Shown: in pieces, positions 57,701 through 60,546 of the stretch
How the letters are laid out: each line of letters starts with the position of its first letter
Position numbering within the stretch: position 1 is the first letter of the stretch
DNA from: Sipunculus nudus
Taxonomy: Eukaryota; Annelida; Sipuncula; Golfingiida; Sipunculidae
Length of the DNA stretch: 64,000 bases
Direction of reading: 5' to 3'
NCBI GenBank assembly: GCA_026874595.1
Contig: CM049306.1
Span: 84,468,142-84,532,141, forward strand
The notes under the pieces: generated by a model
Told to the model about the DNA's origin: nothing
The model's database searches: none
What the model saw: only the letters and a program-made list of their open reading frames with translations
Position numbers and translations under genes: made by a program

Positions 57701-60546
57701 TAAAGTCAGGATATGTTGATTGATTGGCAGTTGATAAATCCCTGGTATTAAATAGTGCCAGATGTGTATATAATTTATTCCCCAGTGAACAAACCTTTCT
57801 TTGGAAATAAACAGGATATTTGTTATGCATATCGTGTTCAGTGAGAGATGCATTGTGGTCAAGTCCTATTGAATAATTAATGTTTTAGTCAGTGGTTATT
57901 TTTTTAATCACTTATATGTTCATTAATTAATTATCATAAAAGAACAATTGCTTTAAATTTTTAATTTGTACAATAAACATTTTTGTTGCATGATGTGCTT
58001 ATTGATATATTCATTTTTCCAGAACATTGGGAAAAAATGAATGTATTGCAATGTGTATGATTGAAATAAAATGATTAAATCTTGCCAGTCATATGATGAT
58101 GATACATTTTGCTTTATTCATGAAGCATGATTGTTAGAATCAGATAATTATAAAAAAAATTCTATTCTTATAATGCAGTGTGTTTATGTATACAGCTGAT
58201 TCTAGTTGTTGTGGTTTTTGTTTCAGGGGGCTGTCCCTGTGGGGACCGTTTATTGTGATGATTTACAAGATGTGCACGTCTGACCTGGTCCGATTTAACT
58301 TGATTTTTATAGTCTTTATTGTACAGTTTTCACAAGGTATTGATGATTCTATTCATTCTCATTTATAAAGTTGTTTGGTGCATTAGTTTTGTCTGCAGAC
58401 AGCCATGCAGGAAGAACAGAATGTTAAAGTACAGGCCTCTCCAACATTAGTTCTTTCACCACATTGAAGGTGTCATCTTGTAAAAATAAATAAAAAATGA
58501 GTTCATCAGAACAACCTTAAAATGGGTTTCATTAAGGTTTGGGTATTTTTCAAAATTGGGCTAAATTATATTCATTCAACCTTACTTCATTTATTAAGTG
58601 TTTTAAATTTTTCTGATCTCATGTGTTTAAAAATATCCTTTGGTTATCTGAAAAAATTCAAGTCTTAAAGAACTGGTAAAACCTTCAAAGAGGACTCTTC
58701 CTTACAACTATTATAATATTCTATCTAGTTCAAATGTTTGATTCATTGTGCTCATTCATTCGCCTGAATAATGACGTAACTTGCAGCAATGTGAGTTTCA
58801 TTGTTCTGCAGTAGACATAAAAGTTCCTTGCTGTCTGCAGACACTTAGTGGAGCTACATGTTTGCTAACACTTTGTCCCTTTTCCCCCAAAATGCAGTCA
58901 TAAAAATGTATCTTTATTTTGAAAAATTATTTTGCAAATAGTCCAAGGGGTTTTGTTAAACCGAGCATTTTGGGGCACACATAGATGCAACACAAAGTTA
59001 GTCCATGACTTTGTCTGAAAATCTCCATGATCAGACTGAAAGTTCCAGTTCTTGTCCCATATCAATAACGAGGGCAGATCCATGATTTTGGAAATGGTGG
59101 GGTCCAACCCAGGAAGGCAAATGAGAAAACCTAAAATAGGTGTTCAGGTCTGTGAAAAGCAGGTTGGTGGGTTTAGATATCAAATATTGGTTTAAAACCC
59201 TTAAAAAAGATTGCAGTAGCTGTAAAACTCTAGACCCCCTTGACTCCCACCCCTTAAAGTTACACTCCTGAATACCACAGTAAATTTGGTTTTGATATTT
59301 ATAGTTAATTATCATAATGAAAGCTAGAGCTGACAATGCTGGTGTTAAAGAAAACATTTTGTGTCTGTATTGTTAATGGGGAGTTCACAAGGTTCTAAGG
59401 TCTAATGTCTCTTTATTTACTAATGCCTAGTAGGGTATACTACCACTTCTAATTCTGGATGTAACTGTGTCTTTAGTATTGCTTAATAATATGTAGGTAT
59501 CTTTTTTAAGCAGATAGTCATTTATCTAAATTATAATTATGATTTCTATTCACATGACTCTGTTTACTTTTAATAGCTTGTACTGTGTTTCTGTTTTGGT
59601 TTAATAACTCACATTCTATTTCATCTTGTATGTGTGACTCATTTAGTTAGACTTGACTCATAACATACCTCTCTATATTCTATAATGGATGTCATTAACT
59701 GTGACTATGGCTTGTAATAATAACCCATAAATCATATTCTGTTCCATGTTGAGGAAAAACTTTTCTGGTTTTGGTTATTAACATATTACAGTTGGCCTTG
59801 TTTTGAGAGACCCCCAGATCAAGTGACCACCTACTTTTTACCTTGTATGGATAGTTTTACTGCTGAAATGTACCTTTATCAAGTGACCACCTGCCACATA
59901 TGACCACTGACCTTTAAGTTTTGGTCAAACATCACAATTACACCTGCTTTGTAAGAACATTTACTAAATTGGGCACTTCTTGTTGTTGATCATATTCAGC
60001 TTTAGATGGTGCTATACGTGCTCCCACTATGCATTGCATACTAAGTATGACAATTTCATTACCCAGTGCCATTCTGGCGTGAACATTGTCCTTGTGTGTT
60101 TCAGTAGGCAAATGATAGTGACAAAATGAATGACATAGATGGTCAACTTACACTTTTTATTGCAAAACATGGGTTAATAACATATTAAAATAAAACAATC
60201 ATTATTTCAAAGTTTTATGTAGCATGAAAGAAATATTGTACTGATGTACTTTGTTATTTGGTAAATACTATAACTCGTGAAACTGCAACAAGATGTAAAT
60301 ATTAAAATGACCACCTGCAATTACTGAACATTTTTCTCATGGAGGGAGGGGTCTCTCAAAGCAGGGACCACTGTACTGTTATTTCCTTTTGAGTAGTTAG
60401 TGTTTATGTGTTACCTGTGTTGTCTTGACTTTCTAGGGGCTTTAACCTGAGTGGCACATTTGTGACAATAATATATCAGATGGTGCGTGGAGACCTGGCC
60501 AGATCCGGTCTTATCTATATCATTTTTATATCTGGATTTATACCAG
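19360..60546 (+). CDS. iav: TRPV cation channel, Inactive/OSM-9-like; 3' part outside the window
   Basis: Exons 19360-19632, 36053-36296, 37164-37319, 39348-39502, 40252-40395, 45051-45132, 46221-46336, 48360-48476, 55734-55841, 56443-56594 and then 58227-58336 or 60437-60546 join in frame. They give about 552 aa with GT-AG introns. The N-terminus (about 1-91) is followed by ankyrin repeats (about 110-325), a pre-S1 region with [16 protein letters not shown]1 (about 394-413), S2 (433-452), S3 (470-487), S4 (494-514) and the S4-S5 linker/S5. Words such as [21 protein letters not shown] and SNITC fit the invertebrate TRPV family, and by eye the Inactive/OSM-9 branch more than Nanchung/OCR. From memory of the family, these form mechano- or chemosensory cation channels in sensory cilia, usually with a Nanchung/OCR partner. 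That role is inferred here. Pore, S6 and C-terminus are missing because the window ends. Confidence 0.85.
19633..20740. other. Start of TRPV intron 1 (16.4 kb in all)
   Basis: Intronic AT-rich DNA from the donor GTAAGT. A small tandem-like motif, CAGACCCGCAAGGTAG / CAGACCCGTAAGGTAG, lies near 19703-19754. No other exon is apparent. Confidence 0.5.
20741..21020 (-). pseudogene. Decayed non-LTR retrotransposon (LINE) reverse-transcriptase C-terminal fragment
   Basis: Read on the minus strand, it encodes [12 protein letters not shown], then [20 protein letters not shown]. After a frameshift, [16 protein letters not shown] follows. The order R-x-[15 protein letters not shown] and Q-x-R-A-x-R-F is the familiar C-terminal end of jockey/CR1-type LINE polymerases. 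The frameshift, the missing rest of ORF2 and an E2 element against its 5' side show it is dead. Confidence 0.75.
21472..25352 (+). repeat. Two tandem copies of a 1.93-kb unit
   Basis: The hairpin start recurs at 21472 and 23402, and long stretches read the same in both copies (for example 22060-23340 against 24040-25330). They differ mainly in CCGT tract length and scattered bases. Confidence 0.85.
25356..26727 (+). repeat. Two tandem copies of a 686-bp unit
   Basis: ACAGTTATTTTTTAATATAA starts both copies (25356 and 26042), and each ends with CAGCTGAGCGTCGTGACCC (26008 and 26693). Differences are few. Confidence 0.9.
26883..30120. other. TRPV intron 1, middle part
   Basis: AT-rich intron with a (TA)n tract at 27476-27499 and one dispersed repeat (27767-28030, listed separately). 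I recognise nothing else. Confidence 0.45.
27767..28030 (+). repeat. Dispersed repeat, inverted relative to 47775-48215
   Basis: Shares long words in reverse complement with 47775-48215, including GAGGGTGCACATGTGCACA-like and GCAACAGAAACTCCTTAACA, and the segment CTCACTAGTATTACAAGGTG. It also carries palindromic GTGCAC words. Confidence 0.75.
30150..30440 (+). repeat. Dispersed repeat, direct copy of 47330-47610
   Basis: Diverged but collinear with 47330-47610: TTTGTTACATTT-AAGGAAAC, then ATGTTATTTGCCTTGAAACA, then CACTTCATTT and a final ATTGTGGG. Family unknown. Confidence 0.55.
31123..31505. repeat. 48-49 bp minisatellite, 8 copies
   Basis: The unit begins GTGTGGTCAGTGTTTTAACA and continues TTGAACAAAGAAAATGG, TTTTCTGTGAA. 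Copies start at 31123, 31171, 31219, 31267, 31316, 31365, 31414 and 31463. The first four units are 48 bp and the later ones 49 bp, from one extra A in the A-run. Confidence 0.95.
31506..33305. other. TRPV intron 1, further part
   Basis: AT-rich intron. An AG/GC-donor pair around 32084-32103 could frame a 20-nt microexon, but it would break the reading frame. I recognise nothing else. Confidence 0.4.
33307..34130 (+). mobile_element. E3-family element with four ~179-bp core units
   Basis: Starts with the perfect hairpin GTGTCG-GAA-CGACAC (33307-33321) and ATGCCCCCACC (33324-33334). It ends with a hairpin containing GGTGGGGGCAT (34120-34130), an 11/11 inverted copy. Core units carry CAAAAGTAGGTCAA at 33401, 33575, 33754 and 33933 (spacings 174, 179, 179). 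A GGACGGAAGGACGG microsatellite precedes the final hairpin. The layout matches E1 and E2 although the sequence does not. Confidence 0.75.
34141..36052. other. End of TRPV intron 1
   Basis: AT-rich intron ending at the acceptor before 36053. It contains two long poly-G runs (about 35745-35756 and 35797-35811) around C-rich words. I recognise nothing else. Confidence 0.45.
36053..36296 (+). CDS. iav: TRPV exon 2: start of the ankyrin domain
   Basis: Acceptor TAATTCCAG, donor GTAAGT, enters at phase 0 and leaves at phase 1. Encodes [18 protein letters not shown], then an ankyrin unit with [14 protein letters not shown]. Confidence 0.9.
37164..37319 (+). CDS. iav: TRPV exon 3: ankyrin repeat
   Basis: Acceptor CCATCAG, donor GTAGGT, phase 1 to phase 1. 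Encodes [20 protein letters not shown] and NGANVNLR, then the TRPV finger-like [11 protein letters not shown]. Confidence 0.92.
38230..38500. repeat. Degenerate ~21-bp minisatellite in intron 3
   Basis: Units near AGCATACATGGTCTATGTTT recur roughly 13 times with variable spacing and many substitutions. Confidence 0.8.
39348..39502 (+). CDS. iav: TRPV exon 4: ankyrin repeat
   Basis: Acceptor ATTGCAG, donor GTAAGT, enters at phase 1 and leaves at phase 0. Encodes [19 protein letters not shown], then [19 protein letters not shown]. Confidence 0.93.
40252..40395 (+). CDS. iav: TRPV exon 5: last ankyrin repeat
   Basis: Acceptor TTGTAG, donor GTAAGT, phase 0 at both ends, 48 codons. Encodes [10 protein letters not shown] and [17 protein letters not shown]. 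Confidence 0.92.
40396..45050. other. TRPV intron 5
   Basis: A 4.7-kb AT-rich intron with a poly-C run at about 43930-43944. ORFs here lack splice signals and family signatures. I recognise nothing else. Confidence 0.45.
45051..45132 (+). CDS. iav: TRPV exon 6: linker after the ankyrin domain
   Basis: Acceptor TATTGCAG, donor GTGAGT, phase 0 to phase 1. Encodes [20 protein letters not shown] and GPLGRT, a conserved post-ankyrin segment in invertebrate TRPVs. Confidence 0.9.
46221..46336 (+). CDS. iav: TRPV exon 7: pre-S1 linker
   Basis: Acceptor CTTATAG, donor GTCAGT, phase 1 to phase 0. Encodes [20 protein letters not shown] and the pre-S1 [11 protein letters not shown]. The donor is weaker than its neighbours, but only this boundary keeps the frame into exon 8. 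Confidence 0.85.
47330..47610 (+). repeat. Dispersed repeat, direct copy of 30150-30440
   Basis: See the intron 1 copy for shared words. This one ends GTGCATTGTGGGTTGTAG. Confidence 0.55.
47775..48215 (-). repeat. Dispersed repeat, inverted copy of 27767-28030
   Basis: Carries CACCTTGTAATACTAGTGAG and TGTTAAGGAGTTTCTGTTGC-like words that are the reverse complement of the intron 1 copy. It is interrupted by unrelated AT-rich sequence near 47910-48140. Confidence 0.7.
48360..48476 (+). CDS. iav: TRPV exon 8: S1
   Basis: Acceptor TTATCCAG, donor GTAAGT, phase 0, 39 codons. RRFVERL leads into the hydrophobic S1 [16 protein letters not shown], then an extracellular stretch with RPDNGELLG. Confidence 0.9.
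48654..48714. repeat. (TA)n microsatellite
   Basis: About 60 bp of TA, about 65 bp before the E1 element in intron 8. Confidence 0.95.
48781..53558 (+). mobile_element. E1-family element, composite, hosting E2 and another core-repeat fragment
   Basis: Starts with the E1 hairpin (48781-48808) and the E1 word TAGATGTCCCCAAG (about 48918). It ends CAGCTGAG...CCCATGGGTCCCTTGTTTT (about 53524-53558). E1 body text resumes near 49620-49880. Inside lie a fragment at about 49010-49615, with two ~325-bp core units around GATATGGG...GGTCATGACC, and the full E2 copy. The interval between 49900 and 51450 is not clearly assigned. Confidence 0.6.
51451..52888 (+). mobile_element. E2-family element, uninterrupted, four ~280-bp core units
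   Basis: Begins with the hairpin GTATCCGCCAAAAC-AGA-GTTTTGCGG... (51451-51480) and ends GGCGGATACACGTAGTCG (from 52859). GTATCCGCC and GGCGGATAC are perfect 9-bp inverted repeats. Core units with ATCTCGGGAAC start near 51671, 51951, 52231 and 52510 (period about 280). Units contain GGTGGCGCCACCTGC, a near-palindrome. No protein-coding signature is present. Confidence 0.75.
53559..55733. other. End of TRPV intron 8
   Basis: AT-rich intron up to the acceptor before exon 9. I recognise nothing. Confidence 0.4.
55734..55841 (+). CDS. iav: TRPV exon 9: S2
   Basis: Acceptor CTTTTAG, donor GTGAGT, phase 0, 36 codons. Encodes [19 protein letters not shown], then [17 protein letters not shown], matching the S2-S3 region of TRPVs. 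Confidence 0.9.
55950..56225 (+). mobile_element. Degenerate tRNA-derived SINE-like repeat
   Basis: AGAAGATCCCGAGTTCTATT (about 56001) resembles a decayed tRNA T-arm/B-box. The following GGTGAGCACTCTG word and tail recur near 61597-61700 on the same strand. Boundaries are approximate. Confidence 0.4.
56443..56594 (+). CDS. iav: TRPV exon 10: S3-S4
   Basis: Acceptor CTTTTTCAG, donor GTAATT, phase 0 to phase 2. Encodes [18 protein letters not shown] (S3) and [20 protein letters not shown] (S4). It ends two bases into an Arg codon that either downstream S5 exon completes with G. Confidence 0.9.
56864..57682 (+). mobile_element. E1-family element, short diverged copy
   Basis: Begins with the E1-type hairpin AGCACAGCTGACC...CAAGCT (56864-56892). 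Two core units carry TAGAAACTTC/TAGAATCTTT and GTATTTTGTGAGTTA-like words. It ends with two tandem copies of the E1 3' terminus, ATCATGACCCTTGGGTCACT (from about 57619 and 57660). Confidence 0.65.
58227..58336 (+). CDS. iav: TRPV exon 11a: S4-S5 linker and S5, first version
   Basis: Acceptor TTTGTTTCAG, donor GTATTG, 110 nt, enters at phase 2 and leaves at phase 1. Encodes [20 protein letters not shown], then [16 protein letters not shown]. It keeps the TRPV-like D-L-x-R-F step before S5. It is homologous to exon 11b (16/36 residues identical), of equal length and phase, so the two are predicted alternatives. Confidence 0.88.
58337..59788. other. Intron between the two S5 exons, left part
   Basis: AT-rich intron without a recognised repeat or a further S5-like copy. 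Confidence 0.5.
59789..60373. mobile_element. 585-bp MITE with TIRs and TA target duplication
   Basis: The left end CAGTTGGCC...TTTTGAGAGACCCC and the right end GGGGTCTCTCAAA...GGACCACTG are imperfect inverted repeats of about 26 bp, with TTTGAGAGACCCC fully matched. Both sides are flanked by TA (59787-59788 and 60374-60375). CAGT termini with a TA duplication fit the Tc1/mariner-pogo group. Internally GTGACCACCT words recur. No transposase is present. Confidence 0.75.
60437..60546 (+). CDS. iav: TRPV exon 11b: S4-S5 linker and S5, second version
   Basis: Acceptor GACTTTCTAG, donor GTAAGA, 110 nt, phase 2 in and phase 1 out, exactly like 11a. Encodes [20 protein letters not shown], then [16 protein letters not shown]. 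Its open frame, good splice sites and conserved positions (G-x-F, IY, M, DL-x-R, LI, FI) argue against a decayed copy. It differs at the R-F step (R-S here) and ends S5 with G-F-I-P. Confidence 0.85.

Follow-up and report, generated by a model that had tools for sequence, protein, structure and literature searches.

Many genes use mutually exclusive exons, and clusters of them can be recognized by a shared set of features: the exons are neighbouring and internal, similar in length, in the same frame, homologous to each other and bounded by conserved borders (PMC3228551; this and the other articles below are cited from parts of their text). In Drosophila X-chromosome transcripts, these features occur in only 90 of 16,180 non-exclusive exons, so exon pairs that carry them are rarely anything but mutually exclusive (PMC3228551). 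Here, we describe two such exons, 11A and 11B (hereafter A and B), in a TRPV channel gene of Sipunculus nudus. The gene lies on the plus strand of a 64-kb stretch of DNA, which we call the window (C1:84468142-84532141), in a genome of 1.43 Gb and 153 contigs. To the features listed above we added a frame criterion, under which one exon keeps the reading frame while both or neither break it, and A and B behave in this way.

Several channel genes are known to use similar exon pairs. The insect sodium-channel gene para carries mutually exclusive exons c/d around the S4-S5 segment of one domain, although its product is a voltage-gated sodium channel, unlike the TRPV product of an Inactive gene. 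In molluscs and other invertebrates, exons 15a/15b of NALCN and 12a/12b of CaV3 resemble A and B in being alternative exons for a segment of a cation-channel pore module, and for NALCN the term "mutually exclusive splicing" has been used; however, these are four-domain channels in which the swap concerns the selectivity-filter site or the extracellular turret (PMC4436565). Insect TRP genes also contain exons termed mutually exclusive, namely Pieris Pyx and TRPM and Bactrocera TRPL, but these pairs lie near the 5' end (in Pyx the first two exons, in TRPM those with the start codon, in TRPL the second and third), and the available parts of these reports name no exclusive pair in Iav (PMC7143563, PMC6137742). 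A further counterpart is the mutually exclusive 7a/7b pair of C. elegans unc-32, whose first exon is said to have weak splice sites, with a UGCAUG motif after the second exon and a UG-rich CELF element close by. Its regulation has been proven by genetics and binding, whereas the elements around A and B are motif matches; its UG-rich element lies in intron 7a rather than before the first exon, and unc-32 does not belong to this channel family (PMC3585155).

The main texts of the scallop, oyster and cephalopod TRP surveys, as far as they were available, contain no word beginning with "splic" (PMC8539334, PMC8004665, PMC13402157), and the cephalopod survey kept one representative sequence per locus (PMC13402157). 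The initial annotation of the window knew of no such switch in Inactive/OSM-9 channels. Among the papers listed from the open full-text literature, a scope that excludes paywalled papers and database annotation, we likewise found no description of exclusive splicing in TRPV, Inactive, Nanchung or OSM-9, and such a pair of isoforms may already be annotated somewhere without having been discussed. A and B add a further case of a known device, in a channel and at a site that are both of interest.

The channel gene and its paired exons

Ten exons upstream of the pair were modelled between 19351 and 56594, followed by A and B. Three further exons lie outside the window and are given in extended coordinates. 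The helix names (S1, S2, S4-S5 linker, S5) follow TRPV topology. All exons are on the plus strand.

Exon 1: 19351..19632, +; an ATG opens the frame, donor GTAAGT, joins exon 2 in frame
Exon 2: 36053..36296, +; ankyrin domain; splice sites, frame and fly Inactive match
Exon 3: 37164..37319, +; ankyrin repeats; tblastn match, splice sites and frame
Exon 4: 39348..39502, +; ankyrin repeats; tblastn match, splice sites and frame
Exon 5: 40252..40395, +; ankyrin repeats; tblastn match, splice sites and frame
Exon 6: 45051..45132, +; linker; tblastn match, splice sites and frame
Exon 7: 46221..46336, +; linker before S1; tblastn match, splice sites and frame
Exon 8: 48360..48476, +; S1; tblastn match, splice sites and frame
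Exon 9: 55734..55841, +; S2; splice sites, frame and alignment to fly Inactive
Exon 10: 56443..56594, +; S3-S4; ends two bases into a codon; tblastn match, splice sites and frame
Exon 11A: 58227..58336, +; end of S4, S4-S5 linker and S5; strong acceptor, weak donor AAG/GTATTG
Exon 11B: 60437..60546, +; homologous alternative to A; good acceptor, good donor CAG/GTAAGA
Exon 12: extended coordinates 64340-64446, +; pore; beyond the window; accepts A or B in frame
Exon 13: extended coordinates 80725-80886, +; S6; beyond the window
Exon 14: from extended coordinate 81996, +; beyond the window

The model is least certain at its two ends. The true start codon of exon 1 is uncertain, with a second ATG three codons further on, and the spliced model aligns from residue 31 onward with fly Inactive from residue 32. 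Exon 14 is cut at an arbitrary point, and the 3' end of the gene lies outside the model. In the tblastn search of the window, exon 9 was matched by the gene's own model only and not by the fly Inactive query.

The initial annotation had proposed a TRPV channel of the Inactive/OSM-9 kind, and the spliced protein bears this out. Compared with solved structures, it scores 664.8 bits against fly Inactive and 411.8 bits against Nanchung, and no vertebrate TRPV among those structures reached the 1e-80 cut-off. Fly Inactive (PDB 9nvn chain B) is the best match of both isoforms, over 643 residues; it was compared as a deposited sequence rather than as a gene, and that sequence shows one version of S5. 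A profile search places the Pfam Ank families and the six-helix Ion_trans domain above cut-off in both isoforms. By best match, and not by a tree, the gene is an Inactive-type (Iav) TRPV channel gene.

On re-measurement, the coordinates first proposed for A and B, their 110-nt lengths, their phases (2 in, 1 out), their AG/GT borders and their 16/36 identical residues were all recovered, as was the end of exon 10 two bases into a codon at 56594. At the nucleotide level the two exons agree at 58/110 bases. A tblastn query with A recovers B within the window (E = 2.8e-7), and a search of the whole genome with B (E <= 1) returns three matches: B itself, A and the S5 exon of a Nanchung-like gene. 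When exons 2-10, A and B served as tblastn queries on the window (exon 1 was left out), A/B was the only homologous copy pair, the remaining cross-matches being ankyrin repeats or weak. Both exons align to one segment, from the end of S4 through S5, in agreement with the initial proposal that the S4-S5 linker plus S5 is swapped. A and B thus show the features of an exclusive-exon cluster: they are neighbouring, similar in length (110/110), in the same frame, bounded by AG/GT and homologous.

The splice sites of the pair are less even than first described. Good acceptors and donors had been claimed for both exons, and this stands for the acceptor of A (second best of 11) and the donor of B, but not for the donor of A. 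With a leave-one-out score trained on the few sites of this gene, the donor of A is the lowest of 12, at 0.32, while the others range from 4.85 to 9.88. As regards a possible U2/U12 incompatibility, the comparison covered the border dinucleotides: all 12 donors are GT and all 11 acceptors AG.

The reading frame discriminates between the possible transcripts. With A alone or B alone between exons 10 and 12, the frame is open over the 698 codons assembled, and the junction into exon 12 reads FSQ-AFYFLF with A and FIP-AFYFLF with B. Inclusion of both exons leads to a stop four codons into B, and skipping of both leads to a stop at the second codon of exon 13. As had been predicted, using both or neither shifts the frame, and both forms stop early in the spliced model through exon 13. 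Because these stops precede a further exon junction, such transcripts would be expected to decay. The stronger assertion that exactly one exon must be chosen is correct for a full-length channel but is no proof that splicing enforces the choice, and non-productive transcripts with both exons or neither may exist.

Age and constraint of the two exons

Agreement between A and B is 19/36 at first, 23/36 at second and 14/36 at third codon positions. The synonymous distance dS could not be computed with NG86 and came to 1.6 with LWL85 and to 16 with maximum likelihood; dN was 0.56-0.73. No convincing similarity was found in the 400 nt flanking each side of A and B; the best flank match spans 29 nt (E = 0.007) and sits at non-corresponding distances. 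From these comparisons, the duplication looks old. Despite this age, B is open, contains no indels and has intact splice sites.

To judge what neutral drift would have left, we used simulations with uniform substitution and no indels. When A drifts neutrally at the rate seen for third positions, the frame survives in 19% of the copies, but none of 200,000 was open with at least 16 identities, and the matches of B to its relatives were reached in 0/100,000. The relatives compared were four: fly Inactive, fly Nanchung, the Nanchung-like protein of S. nudus itself and TRPV1. At the 20 sites where A and B differ, a residue seen in at least one of these relatives is kept by A at 10 and by B at 9. 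Three positions (2, 10 and 29) enter both tallies, so that 7 are kept by A only and 6 by B only. Of the nine positions invariant in the four relatives, A departs at 16, 27 and 33 and B at 11, 16 and 23. On these tallies, each exon keeps its own share of family residues. On the simulations and the kept residues, the idea of B as a neutral copy is rejected; neutral decay, which the initial annotation had named as a sign against the pair, is seen in neither exon.

Profile and structure matches give a similar picture. The whole isoforms score 664.8 and 664.7 bits against fly Inactive, Pfam Ion_trans scores 52.6 bits with A and 50.8 with B (cut-off 25), and on the S3-S5 piece fly Inactive scores 72.1 bits with B and 70.2 with A. 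The individual departures include F to S in B, at a position invariant in the four relatives, and G to Q in A, near the end of S5; the exon ends differ as well, FSQ in A and FIP in B. By these measures, both exons have kept protein-like constraint since the old duplication.

Judged from the sequence, A and B very probably form a pair of mutually exclusive exons in an Inactive-type TRPV gene, with the reading frame as a fail-safe. A working mRNA would carry either A or B as one protein segment comprising the end of S4, the S4-S5 linker and S5. Cells would pick one exon by splicing control, and wrong products would be removed by nonsense-mediated decay as a fail-safe. With less weight, we propose that B would be the default owing to its consensus splice sites, that A, with its weak donor, would need help, and that the switch might be the GCATG motifs downstream of B, with an RBFOX-family protein binding to them.

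Candidate control elements and rival explanations

Two elements near the pair are candidates for controlling the choice:

60572..60617, +; three RBFOX-type motifs (TGCATG at 60572 and 60612, GCATG at 60580); candidate control element
58206..58213, +; TTGTTGTG, resembling part of the CELF/UNC-75 binding element, just before 11A; weak candidate

GCATG is the recognition core of RBFOX, and RBFOX sites after an exon generally promote that exon. The cluster lies 26-71 nt past the donor of 11B, and a TG run follows the motifs. GCATG occurs three times in the 100 nt after 11B and never within 100 nt downstream of the remaining 11 exons examined (1-11A; exons 12-14 were outside this count), and once in the 100 nt before exon 6. 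Three GCATG per 100 nt are found in 8 of 9,240 overlapping sliding windows, several of which are probably the 11B cluster itself. The genome also contains an RBFOX-like RNA-recognition stretch, at 78% over 41 residues, the query being an approximate one. The second element, TTGTTGTG, has 7 copies in 92.5 kb and was compared with the UNC-75/CELF element of worm unc-32 (PMC3585155).

In unc-32, exon 7a is reported to be skipped by default owing to its weak sites, RBFOX and UNC-75 favour 7a, and RBFOX acts via a UGCAUG in intron 7b that is needed for exon 7a (PMC3585155). If the pair followed this precedent, B would be used by default and A under regulation; under the general rule on RBFOX sites after an exon, the GCATG motifs would favour B. 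We have a slight preference for B as the default, and tentatively suggest that the motifs after B could be a control element. Pairing of long complementary stretches between the introns, as in the docking-site/selector class of exclusive exons, was considered as the basis of exclusion and rejected on a weak test in one genome, in which nothing stood above shuffles. Among inverted repeats in 56595-64000, the 25 longest of 76 are variants of one TA run, a long one at 62528-62620 of the window in the intron after B. Rfam returned no match in the window at gathering scores.

A number of observations weigh against an exclusive pair under this kind of control. No confirmed match in a relative was obtained from the collections viral_contigs and genome_contigs. 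The donor of A is equalled or exceeded in score by 27% of the GT dinucleotides in the window. Some broad channel profiles match B less well: Pfam PKD_channel scores 34.2 bits for the A isoform and 22.6 for the B isoform, TRPV5 on the S3-S5 piece scores 38.1 bits with A versus 32.5 with B, and the last two residues of B (IP) fall outside the fly Inactive match. Steric exclusion is unlikely, given the 2,100-nt intron between A and B. In a minus-strand blastn search for intron-intron pairing, the best score was reached or passed by 37 of 50 shuffles, a weak test that used one genome and did not count G-U pairs. All statements about motifs are post hoc, the RBFOX motif having been noticed after looking; TGCATG twice in 150 nt is nominally rare (4.4e-3) and is not the top hexamer there, and the direction of its effect is ambiguous. 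Finally, a recent loss of use of one exon is possible.

This last point is the core of the rival that survives best, in which one exon is a relic: an old duplicate, long functional, that recently went out of use and leaves a single isoform today. Either exon could be cast in this role. A has the weak donor, whereas B has lost a phenylalanine shared by all four relatives, has FIP rather than FSQ at its end and gives a poorer fit to PKD_channel. However, open frames, splice borders and family residues are kept by both exons, so any loss of use must be recent, and B, the more deviant at its protein end, has the better donor. We consider a relic unlikely. A regulated non-productive form, in which inclusion of both exons or double skipping would lower channel expression as an on/off switch, is considerably less probable again. 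Both forms do stop early, upstream of later exon junctions, as such a switch would have it, but a poison exon need not encode an intact S5, and yet both exons look protein-constrained; on/off control and isoform choice are compatible, and both may hold. Although tandem arrays can generally mimic duplicated exons, the idea that a tandem gene copy or an assembly error supplies B (or A) outside the same transcript is largely refuted, as within the window tblastn finds neither a pore exon nor another copy of exons 2-10, the pore exon lies at 64340, after B, and B occurs once in the genome, its other matches being A and the Nanchung-like exon.

The Nanchung-like partner and the meaning of the pair

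The Nanchung-like gene, a name that rests on similarity and not on a tree, lies at C1:91.92 Mb on the minus strand. Its single S5 exon is likewise 110 nt long, with borders at the positions seen in A and B, and is identical to A at 21/36 residues and to B at 17/34 aligned. Because the borders are identical in both genes, they appear to be common to Inactive and Nanchung. A tblastn search with A, B and the gene's own S5 exon found no second S5 copy in its locus, which was taken from the S3-S4 exon to the S6 exon (L002). Most simply, the second S5 copy would be a gain in Inactive, although its loss in Nanchung is a possible alternative.

When the genome was searched for the pore, 16 matches were returned, the majority in other TRP-like genes with long open frames. 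Among the pore-match loci, of which the best candidates were scored, there was no intronless copy close to Inactive that would represent a retrocopy of one isoform. The loci L010, L012-L018 and L020 are TRP-channel-like genes with uninterrupted frames of 598 to 1,300 residues, and several TRP-like loci among these match Inactive in one piece, from the ankyrin repeats to S6. This suggests that the long-frame loci are expanded, possibly retroposed, copies.

Three other features lie in or near the channel gene. At the end of S6 exon 13, beyond the window, is a 77-bp minisatellite of 9.5 copies at 97% (L004:7838-8572; C1 84548979-84549713). Each repeat unit combines the final 49 nt of the S6 exon with its 5' splice site and the beginning of the intron; by consensus, about eight extra GTAGGT donor copies follow the true exon 13 donor, and the array may affect splicing of this exon. 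Upstream of the gene, an open frame at 2354-3082 of the window (+) encodes ankyrin repeats (Pfam Ank_2), and its C-terminus presumably recalls a SOCS box, which Pfam did not match at E <= 0.001. A large direct repeat occupies 22159-25100 of the window, where seven reading frames from 22159-22984 recur letter-identical 1,954 bases on (24113-24938).

The segment exchanged by A and B belongs to the helix that links sensing to the gate, so the isoforms would be expected to show different thresholds, different basal activity or a different assembly with Nanchung. Such a difference in gating or assembly is predicted from the exons themselves, and the animal is probably able to produce one channel in two forms with different gating. 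Among TRPV channels, diversity usually arises through paralogues. We offer, as the more speculative part of our proposal and one we hold doubtful, that a cell-type-specific RBFOX/CELF switch exchanges the gate-coupling helix of Inactive within otherwise identical Nanchung-Inactive channels, such that splicing, not gene duplication, would tune mechanical, osmotic or thermal sensitivity. The Nanchung-Inactive channel is also the target of several insecticides. One Inactive gene seems to hold two sensing-to-pore segments, while its Nanchung-like partner gene holds one, and this natural chimera, which swaps just 36 residues, would provide a direct test of the Inactive S4-S5 linker and S5 in gating and in assembly with Nanchung.

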